Positions 45,553 through 59,790 of a stretch of DNA of 64,000 nucleotides are shown here, in pieces (position 1 is the first letter of the stretch; each line of letters starts with the position of its first letter). Origin of the DNA: Labilibaculum antarcticum. GTDB lineage: Bacteria > Bacteroidota > Bacteroidia > Bacteroidales > Marinifilaceae. The notes beneath the pieces are model-generated. The model did no database searches. It was not told the DNA's origin and worked only from the letters and a program-made list of their open reading frames with translations. Made by a program: the position numbers and the translations under genes. The DNA lies in NCBI RefSeq assembly GCF_002356295.1, contig NZ_AP018042.1, forward strand, positions 248,001 through 312,000. The letters run 5' to 3'.

Positions 45553-47484
45553 ATGAAGCTAATGAAACAAATTACACTACTAGGACTACTCTCTTGCCTT
45601 TTATTTCTCACGCCTGCTTTTGCAAAAAAAGAAAGCATCAAATATCCTGCATTTACGATTCCCACTGAACTTAAAAAAAATGCCAATGCCGTAGTTCGTT
45701 TAGATCAGGCAGAATTTACTGTTTACTCACCAAAGAATTCAAGTCTAAAGCAAAAAATGGTGATAACAATCCTAAATAAAAAGGGCGAATCGTATGCTTC
45801 AATTCCATTTGGTTACAGTAAATTCATGACTCTCGAAAGTTTAAAAATCACCATATACAATTCGTCAGGTATTCAAATTAAAAAAGTAAAAGATTCCGAA
45901 ATTAAAGACTATAGCTATAGCTCGGCGGGCGAATTAATAGGTGATTCGCGCTATAAAATTTACGAATCACTTCAAAAACAATATCCATATACCATTGAAT
46001 ACGAATCAGAATCAAATTATAAGGGGCTTTTTGTTTATCCAAGCTGGAGAGCTTATCCAGGATATTTAGTAAGTATCGAAAATTCTTCAATGAAAGTAAT
46101 ACTTCCTGAAGAAGAAAATTTACGTTACAAATGCATCAATTACACCGATTCGATAAGTACCTGCACCGAAAATCATGTGAAAATATATCAATGGGGAATT
46201 GACAGTTTACCAGCCTTAAAAAGGGAACCCTACTCTACTGGTGTGCTTTCCCAAGCTCCTCAAATTCTTCTTGCTCCACTCAATTTCGAAATGGATAATT
46301 ATCCGGGCAGTTTAGAAAGTTGGAACAGTCTGGGGAAATGGTTTGCAAGTTTAAATAAGGGACGGGATCAAATTCCAACAGATGAACAGGCTCATATTAT
46401 TGAACTCACAAAAGATTGCCAGACCGATACTGAAAAAGTGAAAGCTTTGTATGAATACATGCAATCAAAAACGAGATATATAGGCATACAATTGGGAATC
46501 GGTGGTAATCAACCATTTCCGGCAGAAATGGTTTCTGAAAAAGCTTATGGTGATTGCAAGGCATTATCCAATTACATGAAATCCCTGCTTAAGGTTGTGA
46601 ACATTCCCTCCAACTACACTTTGGTGCGGGCCGGCGAAAGCAATAGTTTCCAACATATTGATTTTGTGCATGATTATTTCAACCATGTAATTTTACGTGT
46701 TCCTATACAGAACGACACAATTTGGCTCGAATGTACGAGTCAAAAAATGCCTTTTGGCTACCTGGGAACCTTTACGGATGACCGCGATGTATTGTGTGTT
46801 AATAATGAGGGTGGAGAATTATGTCATACTCCTATTTACTCGATGGAAGAAAACCAGCAAATTCAGACAGGTACTTTTACCATACAAACCAATGGGAATG
46901 CAAAAGCTCAAATTACAACCCAATTTTCAGGAATTCAATATGAAAATATAGAAACTCTATACAGCACAAGCAGCGCCGAAGAACAGAAAAAATTCCTTTA
47001 CGAAGAACACATCAATCTGCCCGATTTTACAATTAATGACTATAGTTTAGAAGAAAATAAGAGCAGAATACCATCCTCTGTTTTAAAACTGGATCTTGAT
47101 GTGAGAAACTATGCTTCACAAACCGGCGACCGACTATTTATTCCCCTCAATCAGATCAACAGAATCAGTTACGTTCCGAAAAAATTAAAAAAAAGACTTA
47201 CTGATATTCGCTACGCACGATCAATGGAAGATAGAGACAGCATCTGTTTTATACTTCCCAAAGACTACAAAATTGAAAGCATCCCCAAAAAAAAGATAAT
47301 CGAATCGGACTTTGGATACTACCAAAGAACAATTGAGGTGCTCGACAATAAAGTTTACTACACCCGAATTTACCGCAAACACAAAAACACCTTTAAAGCA
47401 TCCCGTTACGAGGAATTTCGAACTTTCCGAAAAGAGCTCGAAAAAGCAGACAAGCTTAGATTGGTGTTGAAGAAGATAACATAG
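45553..47484 (+). CDS. secreted DUF3857 / transglutaminase-like protein
   Basis: A 643-residue exported protein with a signal peptide ending at LTPAFAKK. The N-terminal half is DUF3857 (about 45-200). A transglutaminase-like domain near 290-400 has EKAYGDCKALSNYM with the catalytic Cys, FQHIDFVHDYFNHVILRV with a His, and a later Asp/Glu. The C-terminal part is a beta-rich domain usual in this Bacteroidota family. Such proteins are periplasmic and of unknown substrate, perhaps peptidoglycan or protein crosslinks. Two Met codons (45553, 45562) are possible starts. Confidence 0.88.
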   Translation: MKLMKQITLLGLLSCLLFLTPAFAKKESIKYPAFTIPTELKKNANAVVRLDQAEFTVYSPKNSSLKQKMVITILNKKGESYASIPFGYSKFMTLESLKITIYNSSGIQIKKVKDSEIKDYSYSSAGELIGDSRYKIYESLQKQYPYTIEYESESNYKGLFVYPSWRAYPGYLVSIENSSMKVILPEEENLRYKCINYTDSISTCTENHVKIYQWGIDSLPALKREPYSTGVLSQAPQILLAPLNFEMDNYPGSLESWNSLGKWFASLNKGRDQIPTDEQAHIIELTKDCQTDTEKVKALYEYMQSKTRYIGIQLGIGGNQPFPAEMVSEKAYGDCKALSNYMKSLLKVVNIPSNYTLVRAGESNSFQHIDFVHDYFNHVILRVPIQNDTIWLECTSQKMPFGYLGTFTDDRDVLCVNNEGGELCHTPIYSMEENQQIQTGTFTIQTNGNAKAQITTQFSGIQYENIETLYSTSSAEEQKKFLYEEHINLPDFTINDYSLEENKSRIPSSVLKLDLDVRNYASQTGDRLFIPLNQINRISYVPKKLKKRLTDIRYARSMEDRDSICFILPKDYKIESIPKKKIIESDFGYYQRTIEVLDNKVYYTRIYRKHKNTFKASRYEEFRTFRKELEKADKLRLVLKKIT

Positions 47485-47489
47485 TCTGA

Positions 47490-47583
47490 AAAGTCAAACG
47501 GTCAAACAGTCGAATGGTCAAACGATCGAATAGTCAAACAGACGAACATTCGAACAATCGAACGGTCAAACAGTCGAACTGTC
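47490..47583 (+). repeat. 8-bp tandem repeat array, forward orientation
   Basis: About eleven units of 8 bp (GGTCAAAC, AGTCGAAT, GATCGAAT, AGACGAAC and like variants; consensus AGTCRAAC). It lies upstream of the four-helix-bundle gene and has the opposite orientation to the array at 48048-48175. Confidence 0.9.
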
Positions 47584-47636
47584 CATGTAGAAAGTAAGAA
47601 TAATAAAACGTTAGTATTAATATTAGTTTAAAATAA

Positions 47637-47996
47637 ATGGCAAATATTGAAAGTTTTGAAGATTTAAAAATATGGCAAGATTCCCGAAGTCTAGTTGCTT
47701 TAATATATAACTTAATGCAGACAAATAAGGATTACGGATTTAAAGATCAGATACAAAGAGCATCTGTATCCATCATGAATAATATAGCCGAAGGGTTCGA
47801 ACGAAATTCAGACGCAGAATTTAAAAGGTTTCTGGATATTGCCAAAGCTTCCTGTGGAGAAGTACGCAGCATGTTGTATCTAGCCGAAGACTTAAAATAC
47901 ACCTCTAAAAAAGAAGCCGAAGAGTTCCGCACAAAATGCAGTTATTTATCAGGAGGAATTGCAAATCTTATGAAATACCTAAAATCCCAAAAATGA
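47637..47996 (+). CDS. four-helix-bundle protein (S23 / 23S rRNA IVS type), copy 1
   Basis: A 119-residue helical protein of the family first seen inside 23S rRNA intervening sequences and related in fold to Avd of diversity-generating retroelements. Markers are FEDLKIWQDSRSL, DQIQRASVSIMNNIAEGFERNSDAEFKRFLDIAKAS and EVRSMLYLAEDL. It forms a homopentamer in known structures and probably binds nucleic acid; its role is not established. Here it is not in rRNA. It lies between two 8-bp repeat arrays of opposite orientation. A close paralogue is at 56043-56399, in the same kind of setting. Confidence 0.92.
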   Translation: MANIESFEDLKIWQDSRSLVALIYNLMQTNKDYGFKDQIQRASVSIMNNIAEGFERNSDAEFKRFLDIAKASCGEVRSMLYLAEDLKYTSKKEAEEFRTKCSYLSGGIANLMKYLKSQK

Positions 47997-48047
47997 TCAT
48001 CTGACTCCCGAATTATTGGGAGCTTCTTAACACCGTCATTCGAGATT

Positions 48048-48175
48048 TTGACCTTTTAGACTGTTCGACCATTCGACTTTTTAAGACATTTCAAGACCAT
48101 TAGACCTTTTAACTTCTCAAGATTTTTTCGAGATTATTCAGTCATTAGACGTTGGACTGTTTGACTGTTAGACTA
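48048..48175 (-). repeat. 8-bp repeat array, reverse orientation
   Basis: Degenerate units of the complementary form (GACTGTTC, GACCATTC, GACTGTTT, GACTGTTA) extend to the stop of the response-regulator gene. Together with 47490-47583 they bracket the four-helix-bundle gene as an inverted pair. Confidence 0.82.
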
Positions 48176-49345
48176 TTAATACACCGGAAGGTGAAAAGAT
48201 ACCCGAACACCACCTTCGTTCAGATTGACCACCTCAACTTTGGCTTTATGCAGATCCATTACTAATTTAACGACCACTAAGCCTGCTGTAAAACGGTTAA
48301 AATCTTGTCTTCTGTCTTCCTTGTTTAGCTCAAAAAAGTGGAAGGTATAGTCTACTTCTGATGGCGAAAAATGCACTCCTAAATCCTGAACAAAAACTTT
48401 AACACTCTGGCCTTCGAGCGAAGCGCCAACAAAAACTTCCGAACGTGAAGGTGCATTAGTAATTGCATTTTCAATTACTTTCTCCATGCTGATACCAAGC
48501 AATTTCTCGTCACCACGAATGATGTAATTTTTAGGAATATCTATTTTTAATTTAACCTTTCGTTCCGAAATCAATGGTTTTAACTTTTCAATACTACTTT
48601 TTACGACCTCGTAAACCGAAATGCCTAATATTTTCATTTCATAACGATCAAATCGCAAGGCCGAAAGCAATAATGCCATATCCGAAACACCAGTCAGTTT
48701 TTCACATGCCTGAATAATGTAACGTACGTATTTAAGATTAGTCTTATTCTTGATGGAAAATTCTAACATTTCAGCAAACCCCACAATACCGTTTAGTGGC
48801 TCTCTTAATTCAGTTGACATGAGCGACAAGAAATCATTCTTGGCATCTTCAAGAGTAGAAAGTTGATGGTTTGCATGTTCCAGATTTTTATTTGATTCGA
48901 CCAACTCCATGGTTCGGGCAGCAACCCGCTCTTCCAATTCCAAGTTCATCATTTTCAACTCCTGATTCTTGTATTTTAAATCAAGATGCGTATTCACTCT
49001 GGCAATTAATTCCTGCGGATTAAATGGTTTTGTCACATAATCCTGAGCTCCTGTTTCAAAGCCTTTAATAATAGCTTCTTCATCAACTCTGGCAGTAAGA
49101 AAAATTACGGGAACATCCTTTGTTTTATCTTTCGATTTCAAATACTCACAAACCTCATAACCATCCATTTCAGGCATCATGATATCGAGCAAAACCAAAT
49201 CAAAACTTTCAGTAACGCATAATTTAAGGGCATCTTGCCCATTTAGGGCATAACTAATTTTGTAGGAGTCATCGGAAAGAATGGATTGTAAAACTTTAAT
49301 ATTATCCAGTATATCATCAACAATTAAAATCTGGTATTTATTCAT
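48176..49345 (-). CDS. response regulator fused to a degenerate histidine kinase module
   Basis: A 389-residue cytoplasmic protein. Residues 1-120 are a receiver with Asp10/Asp11, phospho-acceptor Asp54 (LLDIMMPEMDG) and Lys106. A coiled coil follows (about 125-170). The HisKA-like box reads LSLMSTELREPLNG, with Thr178 where the phospho-acceptor His should be. The ATPase-like domain keeps an N-box (EKVIENAITNA), but its G1 motif is reduced to QDLGVHFSP. So it likely does not autophosphorylate and may act as a receiver-gated scaffold or inhibitor. The codon for Thr (ACT) is unambiguous. No output DNA-binding domain is present. Confidence 0.86.
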   Translation of the reverse strand: MNKYQILIVDDILDNIKVLQSILSDDSYKISYALNGQDALKLCVTESFDLVLLDIMMPEMDGYEVCEYLKSKDKTKDVPVIFLTARVDEEAIIKGFETGAQDYVTKPFNPQELIARVNTHLDLKYKNQELKMMNLELEERVAARTMELVESNKNLEHANHQLSTLEDAKNDFLSLMSTELREPLNGIVGFAEMLEFSIKNKTNLKYVRYIIQACEKLTGVSDMALLLSALRFDRYEMKILGISVYEVVKSSIEKLKPLISERKVKLKIDIPKNYIIRGDEKLLGISMEKVIENAITNAPSRSEVFVGASLEGQSVKVFVQDLGVHFSPSEVDYTFHFFELNKEDRRQDFNRFTAGLVVVKLVMDLHKAKVEVVNLNEGGVRVSFHLPVY

Positions 49346-49508: not shown

Positions 49509-49785
49509 GAAGTCGAACGGTCAAACAGTCGAAGAGTCGAAGAGTCAAACAGACGAACAGTCAAACAGTCAAACAGTCGAAGAGTCGAACAGTCGAACAG
49601 TCAAACAGTCAAACAGTCGAAGAGTCGAACAGTCGAACAGTCGAAAGCCGGACAGTTGAACGGTCAAACAGTCAAACAGTCGAAAGCCGGACAGTTGAAC
49701 GGTCAAACAGTCGAAGAGTCAAACAGTCGAACAATCGAACAGTCGAAGAGTCAAACAGTCGAACAGTCGAAAAGTCTATATATAA
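49509..49785 (+). repeat. large 8-bp tandem repeat array (about 34 units)
   Basis: About 34 units of AGTCRAAC/AGTCGAAG run without gap. A 39-bp higher-order unit with the irregular piece GAAAGCCGGACAGTTG occurs twice (from 49641 and 49680). Both plus-strand reading frames over it are open only because an 8-bp unit gives long low-complexity translation (TVEQSNS-like). No gene lies beside it; the repeat cassettes at 49810 follow directly. Confidence 0.92.
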
Positions 49786-49809: not shown

Positions 49810-51175
49810 CATCTTGCGGCGCAGAAAAAGATTCTGTTTCATAAAAGCATTTTCACCTGCGCCAATTTAAAATCACACATTCTTATCCCGGGGTGGCATT
49901 CGCTTCGCTCTTTTACCCCGGGCTATAAGTGTTAGAGCCCTTCAGGCTCAGACAAATCAGAACAAGACTACGTATTGTGTCTTTGGACTGTTTGACTTTC
50001 GACCATTTGACTATTCGACTCTTCAAGACTTTTGAACTTAACACCCCTGGCTAAAGCCAAGTGGCAAAGCAACACCTAATTTTTATTACGCCATCTTGCG
50101 GCGCAGAAGAATATTCTGTTTCATAAAAACATTTTCACCTGCGCCAATGTATAATGTTTCATTCTTACCCCGGGCTATAAGCTTTGTAGTCCTTCAGGCT
50201 CGAGAAATAACAATCAGAACAAGACTACGTATTGTGTCTTTGGACTGTTTGACTTTCGACTCTTCAAGACTTTTCCAGACCCTTCAAGACTTTCCATACT
50301 TTTGGAATCTTAACACCCCTGGCTAAAGCCAAGTGGCAAAGCAACACCTAATTTTGATTATAGCATCTTGCGGCGCAGAAAAAGATTCTGTTTCATAAAA
50401 ATATTTTCACCTGCGCCAATTTAAAATCACACATTCTTATCTCGGGGTGGCATTCGCTTCGCTCTTTTACCCCGGGCTATAAGTGTTAGAGCCCTTCAGG
50501 CTCAGACAAATCAGAACAAGACTACGTATTGTGTCTTTGGACTGTTTGACTTTCGACCATTTGACTATTCGACTCTTCAAGACTTTTGGACTTAACACCC
50601 CTGGCTAAAGCCAAGTGGCAAAGCAACACCTAATTTTTATTATGCCATCTTGCGGCGCAGAAGAATATTCTGTTTCATAAAAATATTTTCACCTGCACCA
50701 ATTTATAATGTTTCATTCTTATCCCAGGGTGGCTTTCGCTGTGCTCATTTACCCTGGGCTATCATATTTGAGCCCTTCAGGCTCGATAAATAACAATCAG
50801 AACAAGACTACACATTGTTTCTTTGGACTGTTTGACTTTCGACCATTTGACCTTTGGACCTTTGGACTGTTTGACCATTAGACCTTTTGACTATTCGACT
50901 TTTCAAGACTTTTCAAGACCTTTCCAGACTCTTGTACTCTTAAAAAAATATCCACTGTCTAAAGCCAAATGGCAAAGCAACACCTAATTTTTATTATGCC
51001 ATCTTGTGGCGCAGAAGAAGAAGATGCTGTTTCATAAAAACATTTTCACCTGTGCCAATTTAAAATCAGAACAAGACTACGTATTGTGTCTTTGGACTGT
51101 TTGACTTTCGACCATTTGACCTTTGGACTGTTTGACTTTCGACTTTTCAAGACCTTTCCAGACTTTTGACTCTTT
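49810..51175. repeat. five tandem multi-hairpin cassettes of about 280 bp
   Basis: Copies start at 49810, 50092, 50364, 50646 and 51000 (spacings 282, 272, 282, 354). A full copy has, in order: GGCGCAG pairing with CTGCGCC over about 35 bases; CCCGGGGT pairing with ACCCCGGG; GAGCCCTTCAGGCTC; a conserved AACAAGACTACGTATTGTGT; a decayed reverse 8-bp array (TTGACTTTCGACC type); and CCCCTGGCTAAAGCCAAGTGGC-type hairpins. The fifth copy lacks the middle part. The CCCGGGG/ACCCCGGG and GCCCTTCAGGC pieces resemble REP-type elements of Bacteroidota; no REP-associated transposase is in the window. Confidence 0.85.
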
Positions 51176-52806: not shown

Positions 52807-52850
52807 TATCATCCATTTCGATTTTTCATTAGTGCTTTCAGATCCCTCGC

Positions 52851-53393
52851 TGCCTCGGGATGACTGCATTAAATTTGTCATAGCAAGAAGCGCAGCGACG
52901 TGGCCGTCTGTTGCTAATTGAACCTCATTAAATCATTCATTTACTGGTTTTTCAGCAATCCCCGAGCTAAAGCTGCGGGGCAAAACATGAGGCTAGTCTG
53001 TAGTTTTGACTTTAAAATTTTAAAATTTTCATTAGTTCGCTTCCTCGGGATAACAGCATTGGATTTGTCATAGCGAGAAGCGCAGCTACATAGCTATCTG
53101 TTGCTAATTGAGCCTCATTAAATTATTCATTTACTGGTTTTTCAGCAATCCCCGAGCTAAAGCTGCAGGGCAAAGAATTAGGCTAGTCTGTAGTTTTGAC
53201 TTTAAAATTTTCAATTTTTCATTAGTTCGCTTCCTCGGGATAACAGCATTGGATTTGTCATAGCGAGAAGCGCAGCTACATAGCTATCTGTTGATAATTG
53301 AGCCTCATTAAATTATTCATTTACTGGTTTTTCAGCAATCCCCGAGCTGAAGCTGCGGGGCAAAGCATGAGGCTAATTACTACAATAGACTTG
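52851..53393 (+). repeat. 190-bp tandem repeat, three copies
   Basis: Copies start at 52851, 53041 and 53231, exactly 190 bases apart; the last is cut short at about 53393. Each has CCTCGGGATAACAGCATTGG (the first is more diverged), GTCATAGCGAGAAGCGCAGC, CTAATTGAGCCTCATTAAAT, TTTACTGGTTTTTCAGC and a CCCCGAGCTAAAGCTGCGGGG hairpin. The GCGAGAAGCGCAGC part belongs to the widespread GCGAGGAGG-type intergenic repeats. There is no long frame and no gene. Confidence 0.88.
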
Positions 53394-54262
53394 GACTCTT
53401 AATCAAAAAAATCCCCTGGCTAAAGCCAAGTGGCAATACAATACCTAATTTTGACTATGGAATAGTGCAGCGCAGAAGAAGATTCTGTTTCATAAAAACA
53501 TTTTCACCTGCGCCAATTTAAAATCACACATTCTTATCCCGGGGTGGCATTCGCTTAGCTCTTTCACCCCTGGCTATAAGCGCTAAAACCCTTCAGGCTC
53601 GAGAAATAACAATCAAAACGAGACTACACTCCCGAATTCCCGGGTGAATACCAACTTCCGGTTTTCGACTGTTTGACTGTTCGACTTTCGACTTTTAACT
53701 ATGGAACCTTGCGGCGCAGAAGAAGATTCTGTTTCATAAAAACATTTTCACCTGCGCCAATTTATGATGTTTCATGCCTATTCTGGGGTGGCATTCGCTG
53801 TGCTCATTTACCCAGGGCTATCATATTTGAGCCCTTCAGGCTCGAGAAATAACAATCAAAACGAGACTACACATTGTTTCTTTGGACTGTTTGACTTTTG
53901 ACTATTAGACTCTTCAAGACCTTTCTTCTTCTTCAAACACACCCCTCTGCCTGTCGGCATCTCCCCTTAAAATGGGAGAATTACTACAATGGGCTTAGAC
54001 TCTTAACACCACTGGCTAAAGCCAAGTGGCAAAGCAACTCTATACACTTTGACTTTAGGACATTTGACTCTTCAGGACCTTTCAAGACTCTTCGACTCTT
54101 TTTTTAAAAAAAATCCACTGGCTAAAGCCAAGTGGCAAAACAACACTTTACACTTTGACTTTCGACCTTTTGACTATTCGACTCTTCAAGACTCTTCAAG
54201 ACTCTTCAAGACATTTCCAGACCCTTCAAGACCTTTCCAGACTTTTTCCTCTTTTCTTTGCA
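53394..54262. repeat. further multi-hairpin cassettes, partly decayed
   Basis: Two longer copies of the 280-bp cassette (near 53457 and 53702) and two short ones (near 54009 and 54113) that keep only GGCTAAAGCCAAGTGGCAA and the reverse 8-bp array (ACTCTTCAAG units at 54180-54240). A plus-strand frame across them is low-complexity. No gene is seen between 52581 and 54449. Confidence 0.82.
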
Positions 54263-55992: not shown

Positions 55993-56042
55993 TGGTTAAA
56001 CGGACTAAGGGTCGAAGAATCAAAGAGTCAAACAGTCGAATA
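55993..56042 (+). repeat. 8-bp repeat array, forward orientation, beside copy 2
   Basis: Units such as GGTCGAAG, AATCAAAG, AGTCAAAC and AGTCGAAT adjoin the stop of the second four-helix-bundle gene. They are opposite in orientation to the array at 56401-56447. Confidence 0.85.
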
Positions 56043-56399
56043 CTATTTTTTGCATAGATACTTCATCAAATTGCTTATTGCACCTGATAAATTACTGGAA
56101 CGTACTCTTAGTTCCTGGGCTTTTTCTATAGTAAGGTAATTAAGGTCTTCAGCCAAATAAAGCATGCTACGCACCTCACCTGATGAGGCTTTTGCAATAT
56201 CCAGAAATCTTTTGAATTCAGCATCTGAGTTCCGTTCAAAACCTTCTGCAATATTGTTCATGACAGATACTGAAGCTCTTTGAATTTGATCCCGAAAACC
56301 AAAATCTCTGTTTTCTTTCAATATTAAATAAACGTCACCAACAAGTACTCTGGCATCCTGCCAAATTTTTAAATCTTCAAACTTCTCGACATTTGCCAT
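56043..56399 (-). CDS. four-helix-bundle protein (S23 / 23S rRNA IVS type), copy 2
   Basis: A 118-residue paralogue of the protein at 47637-47996. The stretch DQIQRASVSVMNNIAEGFER through AEDL is almost identical, while the ends diverge (VEKFEDLKIWQDARVLVGDVYLILKENRDFGF). It lies between manC and rfbB, so it interrupts a sugar-nucleotide operon. Arrays of 8-bp repeats flank it in opposite orientation within a few bases of start and stop. The function is not established; mobile or repeat-linked spread is inferred from the two copies. Confidence 0.92.
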   Translation of the reverse strand: MANVEKFEDLKIWQDARVLVGDVYLILKENRDFGFRDQIQRASVSVMNNIAEGFERNSDAEFKRFLDIAKASSGEVRSMLYLAEDLNYLTIEKAQELRVRSSNLSGAISNLMKYLCKK

Positions 56400-56400
56400 G

Positions 56401-56447
56401 CTAACGACTTTTTGACTGTTCGACTCTTGGACTTTTATACTTTACGA
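56401..56447 (-). repeat. 8-bp repeat array, reverse orientation, beside copy 2
   Basis: Units TTTTGACT, GTTCGACT, CTTGGACT, TTTATACT and TTACGACT lie between the start of the four-helix-bundle gene and the stop of rfbB. They complete the inverted pair with 55993-56042. Confidence 0.84.
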
Positions 56448-59239: not shown

Positions 59240-59617
59240 CTACAAAATGAATCTTTTGTACTGCAAACTTGTTGCTCCAAAATTGATTAATAGCCCTACT
59301 CTTTTACCCGTAGCCTTCAAATAATTTAAAACTTGAGCAGTATGAATATCATCCAAAGTTTTTACAGCCTTTAACTCAACAATAACTTCATCAAAACAAA
59401 GAAAATCAGCGTAATATTTCTTATCAAGCTGATTTCCTTTATATACAATTCCAAGTTCTACCTCTCTTTCAAAATCAATCTCTTTTTCTACTAATTCTAT
59501 TTCCAGAGCTTCTTGATAAACCGCTTCCAAAAAACCACATCCGAGTTCTGAATGAACTTCCATACAACTACCAATAATTTTGTAGCATTCTTTCTTCAGA
59601 ATATAGTCTTGCTTCAT
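59240..59617 (-). CDS. GxxExxY protein (PD-(D/E)XK nuclease-like)
   Basis: A 125-residue protein from the ATG at 59617; 13 codons upstream come from repeat sequence. The name motif is GFLEAVY in GCGFLEAVYQEALEIEL. The later ADFLCFDEVIVELKAVKTL carries the D...E-x-K pattern of the PD-(D/E)XK nuclease superfamily. The function is unproven. In Bacteroidota such genes often lie in glycan loci or within rRNA. Here it separates rfbA from rfbC in an otherwise standard rhamnose operon and is bordered by ATTTGTG-type repeats on both sides. Confidence 0.9.
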   Translation of the reverse strand: MKQDYILKKECYKIIGSCMEVHSELGCGFLEAVYQEALEIELVEKEIDFEREVELGIVYKGNQLDKKYYADFLCFDEVIVELKAVKTLDDIHTAQVLNYLKATGKRVGLLINFGATSLQYKRFIL

Positions 59618-59624
59618 TTTGTAA

Positions 59625-59790
59625 AAAAGTAAATTTCGAACCACAAATTTCTCCAATTTTCACAAATGAAAAAAGCTTTATTTAAATAAGCAAAATGATC
59701 AATCCTCCATCATAAGGGAGGCAAGACTCCATTTTGACACTTAAAAATTTGTGACAATCAGTGAAATTTGTGGTTAATATTATTTGAGGT
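59625..59790. repeat. ATTTGTG-type repeat, upstream side of the GxxExxY gene
   Basis: GAACCACAAATTTCTCCAAT with TTTCACAAATG at the left and AATTTGTGACAATCAGTGAA with ATTTGTGGTTAAT at the right form an inverted pair about 90 bases apart. Between them is a short GGGAGGC-containing spacer. The right end touches the rfbA stop. Confidence 0.8.

Follow-up and report, generated by a model that had tools for sequence, protein, structure and literature searches.

The DNA analysed here is a window of 64 kb (64,000 nucleotides) from the genome of Labilibaculum antarcticum, in which a small S23-type gene, designated copy 1, lies between two repeat arrays of opposite orientation. In window coordinates, the parts of this locus are as follows:

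47483 to 47583, plus strand: 5′ arm, tandem AGTCRAAC octads, starting from the stop codon of the upstream transglutaminase-like gene (TRF, GTCRAA cluster)
47584 to 47636, plus strand: leader without repeats, from the 5′ arm to the start codon (sequence)
47637 to 47996, plus strand: copy 1 S23 / bIVP four-helix-bundle gene, 119 aa (PF05635, TIGR02436, AlphaFold)
about 48046 to 48175, minus strand: 3′ arm, an inverted degenerate array of the GAC-NTTYGAC type (sequence, GTCRAA clusters)

The copy 1 protein scored 118.8 bits against PF05635 (23S_rRNA_IVP; cut-off 33.8), which was its sole Pfam match, and in a profile search it scored 115.1 bits against TIGR02436, "four helix bundle protein" (cut-off 24). 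The AlphaFold model (pLDDT 95.4) has four helices and forms a four-helix bundle. TRF assigned the array at 47483–47583 periods of 8 and 16, while the 3′ arm, which abuts the stop codon of a convergent response-regulator gene, is more degenerate and mixes 8-nt with 10-nt spacings. When the 5′ flank was aligned locally with the reverse complement of the 3′ flank the score was 33, compared to 11 in direct orientation. As a same-genome control we scored 276 random L. antarcticum genes, none of which reached 33 (maximum 31). The sequence-only reading of this locus had described an S23-type gene flanked by inverted 8-bp arrays, and both the coordinates and the geometry were correct as judged by TRF and the alignment score. 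It had further envisaged that the arms could pair into a long stem, and predicted folding of 47484–48180 did better than 20 of 20 shuffled controls as RNA (z −2.69) and 19 of 20 as DNA (z −1.71). Genes at the same site in five congeners have arrays as well, and arrays are rare at random genes and gaps of the genome; on both counts the sequence-only reading escaped refutation. The neighbours of copy 1 are protein genes, hence this is not an insertion in a 23S rRNA helix, and no Rfam family matched at gathering thresholds in the 64-kb window.

A second S23 gene and several arrays without a gene lie further along the window:

49511 to 49776, plus strand: gene-less array of the copy 1 word, about 33 units (TRF score 315)
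50821 to 51171, minus strand: gene-less arrays of the copy 1 word family in the other orientation (TRF, GTCRAA clusters)
56002 to 56042, plus strand: 3′ arm of copy 2, opposite to the gene in orientation (sequence, GTCRAA clusters)
56043 to 56399, minus strand: S23 copy 2, 118 aa, between rfbB-like and manC-like genes (TIGR02436, 104.1 bits)
56404 to 56441, minus strand: 5′ arm of copy 2, GTCCAAGAGTCGAACAGTCAAAAAGTC in the sense of the gene (sequence)

Copy 2 matches copy 1 in geometry and word family, and the two proteins are 72–73% identical. In the syntenic congener G003 we found no empty site for copy 2; the junction holds two other genes and is unusable for that reason. The window contains 11 GTCRAA clusters (3 forward, 8 reverse), and none occurred in 400 kb sampled from the same genome as 20 evenly spaced 20-kb stretches. 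A genome-wide search for the GTCRAAC triple word, allowing up to 2 mismatches, returned 69 matches and the reversed control pattern returned 0; clusters lie near 295–297, 302, 450, 1399, 1776, 2338, 4827 and 4830 kb. The L. antarcticum genome (G000) is a single contig of 5.72 Mb with six S23 matches; the repeats beside them are, by eye, of CAAGTCA type, GTCRAAC type (two loci), AATTAATA type and AAGGAAC type (an adjacent pair). In the adjacent pair (L005/L006, G000:C1:339759-340445), AAGGAAC-type arrays flank two S23 genes that closely resemble each other; one of the two has an internal stop. Several other repeats were seen in passing. Long intergenic composite repeats of 282 and 106 bp at 49810–50851 and 54009–54243 carry GACTNTTYGAC-type arrays (TRF), a gene-poor stretch at 52847–53375 holds 2.8 copies of a 190-bp unit at 92% (TRF), and about 1 kb beyond the end of the window (G000:C1:313012-313107) a fragment matches residues 1–32 of the manC-like protein at 88% identity.

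Three sets of loci were used to ask how general inverted arms are around S23 genes. Set 1 comprised 32 loci from nine congeners. Set 2 comprised 69 loci from 61 genomes sampled phylum-wide: 29 loci were among the matches listed and 40 were picked for spread with their flanks unseen; 67 were usable after omission of one cut locus and one with a short flank. Set 3 was the best 80 of at least 584 confirmed relatives in named genomes of many phyla, with 76 usable after four cut loci were omitted. Arms were scored on 120-nt flanks, with flanks shifted by 700 nt as the displaced control and the 95th percentile of mismatched pairs as the threshold. In set 2, the mean score was 17.97 for inverted flanks, 11.93 for direct, 9.52 for displaced and 9.99 for mismatched pairs (n = 67), with inverted higher than direct at 55 loci, equal at 1 and lower at 11 (Wilcoxon p = 1.7e-7). 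The threshold was reached by 52/67 loci in inverted orientation, 13/67 in direct and 1/67 when displaced. Set 3 behaved similarly: 52/76 loci had inverted arms, 31/44 in Bacteroidota and 21/32 in other phyla, compared to 9/44 and 2/32 with direct arms and 0/65 displaced. Positives came from Nitrospirae, Planctomycetes, Elusimicrobia, Firmicutes, Acidobacteria, Deltaproteobacteria, Gammaproteobacteria, Ignavibacteria, Verrucomicrobia, Chloroflexi and a candidate-phyla bacterium, although for some the phylum may be wrong, because these records are metagenome bins whose phylum was taken from the title. The 11/32 misses outside Bacteroidota (L144, L156, L158, L169, L175, L188, L190, L195, L196, L197 and L201) include the only cyanobacterial, lentisphaeral, SAR324 and alphaproteobacterial loci of the set. 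In set 1, 13/32 loci reached a threshold raised by orthologues, which inflate its mismatched control, and 0/32 did so when displaced. Weighing against the cassette reading developed below, 15/67 loci of set 2 and 24/76 of set 3 lie below threshold, and a few loci have direct arms (L063, L064, L084 and L169, and by eye L150). S23 genes themselves were present in 45/61 genomes drawn across the phylum, L. antarcticum included. One record, L177, titled Limnohabitans, has an S23 protein that shares 82–86% identity with its counterparts in Flavobacterium and Flavobacteriales records, so its contig may be misbinned or recently transferred. The sequence-only reading had proposed that the gene may be part of a repeat-borne element, and since inverted arrays accompany the S23 family, that proposal stands.

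The arms have a characteristic step. Self-matching of 90-nt S23 flanks peaks at lags of 7, 14 and 21, and the dominant lag in set 2 was 7 at 41/68 loci and 8 at 17/68, compared to 3 and 3 of 67 in displaced flanks. S23 arms are thus built of 7- or 8-nt units, with a word that varies from locus to locus. A strict detector applied to sets 2 and 3 found arrays in 72/143 5′ flanks and 66/147 3′ flanks, on either side at 104/147 loci and on both at 37/147; in controls it found no more than 3 of 135–146 at offsets of 300–700 nt and 14 in 3620 random tiles of the L. antarcticum genome. Read towards the gene, the arms are poor in C (C 0.146, G 0.236; displaced C 0.228, G 0.230). The units often have a fixed AG or GG; AG stands at a fixed phase in every unit of 57/140 detected arms, compared to 8/140 when read the other way. 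Inverted flanks were also seen around other genes of the phylum, namely 9/20 Y1 genes and 18/30 GxxExxY genes (12/30 direct). A dominant lag of 7 was seen at 1/20 Y1 and 0/30 GxxExxY loci, and one of 8 at 2/20 and 2/30. Inverted flanks alone are therefore not peculiar to S23, and it is the 7/8-nt step that sets these loci apart. The GxxExxY (PF13366) genes, one in the window at 59240–59656 on the minus strand and others at L228–L257, lie between short repeats with CACAAAG/CACAGAG words. Their flanks have arrays of their own with units of 9–12 nt (dominant lag 9 in 10, 12 in 8 and 10 in 6 of 30), and it is possible that they represent a parallel gene-plus-repeat system.

One explanation for the stem-like layout is that the arms are kept for pairing in the transcript, where a long RNA stem would insulate or excise the S23 message and spare the host operon. 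The available text of PMC4990558 describes RNase III excision of an rRNA intervening sequence, the fold of the copy 1 locus as RNA is consistent with such a role, and 105/135 S23 genes are codirectional with both neighbours, compared to 61/99 random small genes of L. antarcticum. If the arms paired as RNA, however, G-U-compatible mismatches should outnumber incompatible ones, and among transitions at 134 loci we counted 266 compatible and 305 incompatible. This test thus found no sign of selection on the stem at the RNA level, and pairing of the gene-strand transcript is not a likely constraint; the idea that arm pairing as RNA is a maintained feature is not supported. The gene-less arrays L053, L054 and L055, which have no inverted partner of their word in the stretch read, also argue against this explanation, and we consider it unlikely.

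A second alternative sees in the arrays ordinary intergenic repeats prone to slippage, or sites of translational regulation, with S23 genes merely settling in gaps of that kind. In its favor, L. antarcticum has about 16 arrays per 400 kb that lack an S23 gene, and similar heptamer arrays were put forward as possible regulatory sites, without a link to S23, in the available text of PMC4679880. Against it, among gaps of 60–400 nt arrays were found in 51/83 S23 5′ gaps (61%) and 32/50 S23 3′ gaps (64%), compared to 5/132 random L. antarcticum gaps (4%), which makes them about 16 times commoner in S23 gaps. The arrays are also inverted across the gene, and their period tracks the protein tree, as described below, a dependence that largely contradicts this alternative; we give it little credence.

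The S23 protein tree has 171 rows, with 73/168 inner branches unresolved. A period label of 7 or 8 was placed on 126 rows and 45 ambiguous rows were omitted. When each insertion site was counted once (n = 92, 26 octads), period changed 13 times on the tree, compared to 23.15 ± 1.5 times after shuffling, and 0/200 shuffles were as low. Because the period of the repeat tracks the S23 phylogeny at different insertion sites, the S23 gene and its repeat look, from sequence comparison, to be cognate. Similarity of the arm words also grows with S23 identity. At S23 identities of <35, 35–45, 45–55, 55–65 and 65–75%, arm-word similarity between different sites was 12.4, 12.1, 12.2, 15.3 and 18.5, with a wrong-way control of 11.2, 11.2, 10.9, 12.3 and 12.8 in the same bins. 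The 75–90% bin gave 27.6 with a control of 19.8, from 5 pairs only, some of which are perhaps one site unrecognised. The 16 non-S23 arrays of the 400-kb sample had a mean similarity of 16.3 to the S23 arms of their own genome and 12.7 to five random foreign arms, and 6/16 beat all 60 foreign draws; this match to resident arms is weak, however, because 5/6 match the AT-rich word of L004. As a test of concerted evolution, comparison of the two arms of one locus with the arms of orthologues gave mixed results. Within-locus similarity was 19.0 at a first site, compared to 18.5 (5′ arms) and 14.8 (3′ arms) between orthologues, and 15.8 at a second, compared to 12.7 and 16.3. At two sites of close relatives the within-locus value was lower, 15.5 compared to 20.2/26.0 and 34.0 compared to 49.8/82.6 between orthologues.

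S23 cassettes lie in gene junctions, mostly between codirectional genes. Empty and filled states could be compared at one of them, the junction between two genes we take to be sdhA and sdhB (names assigned by eye). In 2/9 congeners (G000 and G004) this junction is empty, with three bases from stop to start, and in 7/9 it is filled by arm, S23 gene and arm, three with the ATGAGAT word and four with the AGTAACT word. The empty junction could be a loss rather than the ancestral state. By eye, no target-site duplication was visible between filled and empty sdh junctions, a comparison of this one junction only. Cassettes occupy the sdhA-sdhB junction in several families (L207–L215, L150, L162, L170, L179 and L206). 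Across families, S23 proteins from this junction fall in three parts of the tree, with 3 changes compared to a shuffled mean of 7.2, while strongly supported branches alone force 1 change and are compatible with one origin. This distribution, on a tree that is weakly resolved, suggests that sdhA-sdhB is a hot spot, and judged from these sequences repeated independent filling of the junction is likely.

Arms occur without the gene, and genes decay. At L049 16086–16260 inverted heptad arms stand without an S23 gene between genes that look like trpB and trpA (again named by eye). Another junction of the apparent trp operon in the same genome (L049 12347–12381) has a single heptad arm without S23. 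In G002 the S23 gene is broken into two pieces. Across 14 pairs with finite dS, dN/dS was 0.02–0.42 (one further pair was saturated), and by this measure the S23 protein is under purifying selection. Among fetched loci, with L005/L006 excluded, there were no recent duplicates, the top identity between different sites within one genome being 73%. Words vary by locus, so the cassettes do not have the fixed terminal inverted repeats of a classical TIR transposon or MITE, and they encode no enzyme. We infer mobility from patchiness, the empty junction and likely repeated occupancy.

What the protein might contribute is suggested by its fold. A Foldseek search with the copy 1 model returned 2gsc and 2rld at E ≤ 0.001, followed by the Avd structure 4dwl at E 0.013 and Avd within DGR reverse-transcriptase complexes at E 0.013 and above. 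Structure 2gsc has five chains, and the S23 protein of X. campestris is described as a homopentamer in the available text of PMC4990558. When S23 proteins were compared with the phage family "Avd protein of DGR", 37/42 matched, copy 1 only at E 0.006. Together these matches raise a third alternative, in which mobility is retroelement-like and S23 acts as Avd with a reverse transcriptase supplied in trans. Partner enzymes were surveyed in 24 of the 45 S23 carriers, mostly many-copy genomes and several of them drafts, and in 11 S23-less genomes. RVT_1 was somewhat commoner in carriers (11/24) than in S23-less genomes (3/11), in line with this alternative; however, it was absent from 13/24 carriers, including genomes with 16, 15, 14 and 13 S23 matches, and we consider a retroelement-like route improbable. 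Y1 transposase was found in 19/24 carriers and 5/11 S23-less genomes and was absent from 5/24 carriers. As obligatory resident partners, a reverse transcriptase and a Y1 transposase are both rejected on these absences among the 24 carriers surveyed; a helping role for Y1 transposase is possible. The two RVT_1 matches of L. antarcticum lie at 4.33 and 4.34 Mb and the window at 0.25–0.31 Mb.

The copy 1 locus is probably, if by no means certainly, a member of a widespread mobile cassette class with the order 5′ arm, leader, S23 gene and inverted arm, in which the 5′ arm would consist of 7- or 8-nt units and the same units would follow the gene inverted. We hypothesize that an S23 ring, pentameric in X. 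campestris and Avd-like in fold, binds its own repeat stepwise and brings both ends of the cassette together. A host or trans-acting enzyme would then copy or insert the cassette, with chemistry that is not S23's own; we propose other enzymes for this step because RVT_1 and Y1 are each missing from a share of the carriers. On this view, arrays that lack the gene would be leftovers of cassettes or copies without autonomy, and 23S rRNA intervening sequences a special case, cassettes that landed in rRNA. The broader proposal is put forward tentatively, as a reading with slightly less than even prospects: S23 and its inverted 7/8-nt arrays may form a bacterial mobile cassette class of their own, in which the lineage fixes the step, with its AG/GG anchor, rather than the word, and one process makes or keeps the two arms alike. 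If true, such a class would explain rRNA intervening sequences and the heptamer arrays scattered through Bacteroidota, Cyanobacteria and Beggiatoaceae; it might also explain the similar GxxExxY genes with their own 9–12-nt arrays. With S23 genes as common as they are in the phylum, linking them to heptamer arrays, with the S23 protein as the proposed partner of the repeat, gives each a testable explanation.

Several known systems resemble parts of this arrangement. The available text of PMC4679880 (MacGregor) reports that a Beggiatoaceae genome contains 169 intergenic sets of TAACTGA heptamers, with further occurrences in Cyanobacteria and Bacteroidetes and with a mechanism of transmission that is not evident. 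Like S23 arms, these are intergenic arrays in which strains differ by 7-nt steps. The main text of that paper makes no mention of S23, four-helix proteins or intervening sequences, and in the available portions of the open-licence literature we found no link between S23/four-helix-bundle genes and intergenic heptamer arrays. At least two TCAGTNA/TNACTGA units were present at 4/179 S23 loci in the expected orientation, at 1 in the opposite orientation and in 0 displaced windows.

The parallel with 23S rRNA intervening sequences, which the sequence-only reading had drawn, is real. The protein family is the same, and according to the available text of PMC4990558, in which S23 function is stated as unknown, the Coxiella intervening sequence has inverted repeats forming a 28-bp stem around the S23 ORF and tandem heptamers 5′ of it, two or three depending on the strain. 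In the intervening sequences of Leptospira and Coxiella, as at the copy 1 locus, the S23-family ORF lies in a loop closed by terminal inverted repeats, and copy 1 indeed has such repeats. Unlike them, S23 cassettes lie between protein genes, both of their arms are arrays, and they occur with many words and several per genome. In diversity-generating retroelements the Avd protein resembles S23 in fold and profile match, but no reverse transcriptase stands beside the gene at the S23 locus. REPtrons pair a RAYT/TnpA_REP transposase with cognate REP palindromes, and REPs are also found without the gene across the genome. They share with S23 cassettes a small gene, inverted repeats on both sides of it, and repeats that also occur alone, whereas S23 has no HuH/Y1 domain and its repeats are 7–8-nt tandem units rather than palindromes. 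By analogy of layout, RAYT/REP systems are the closest architectural parallel to the S23 cassettes.
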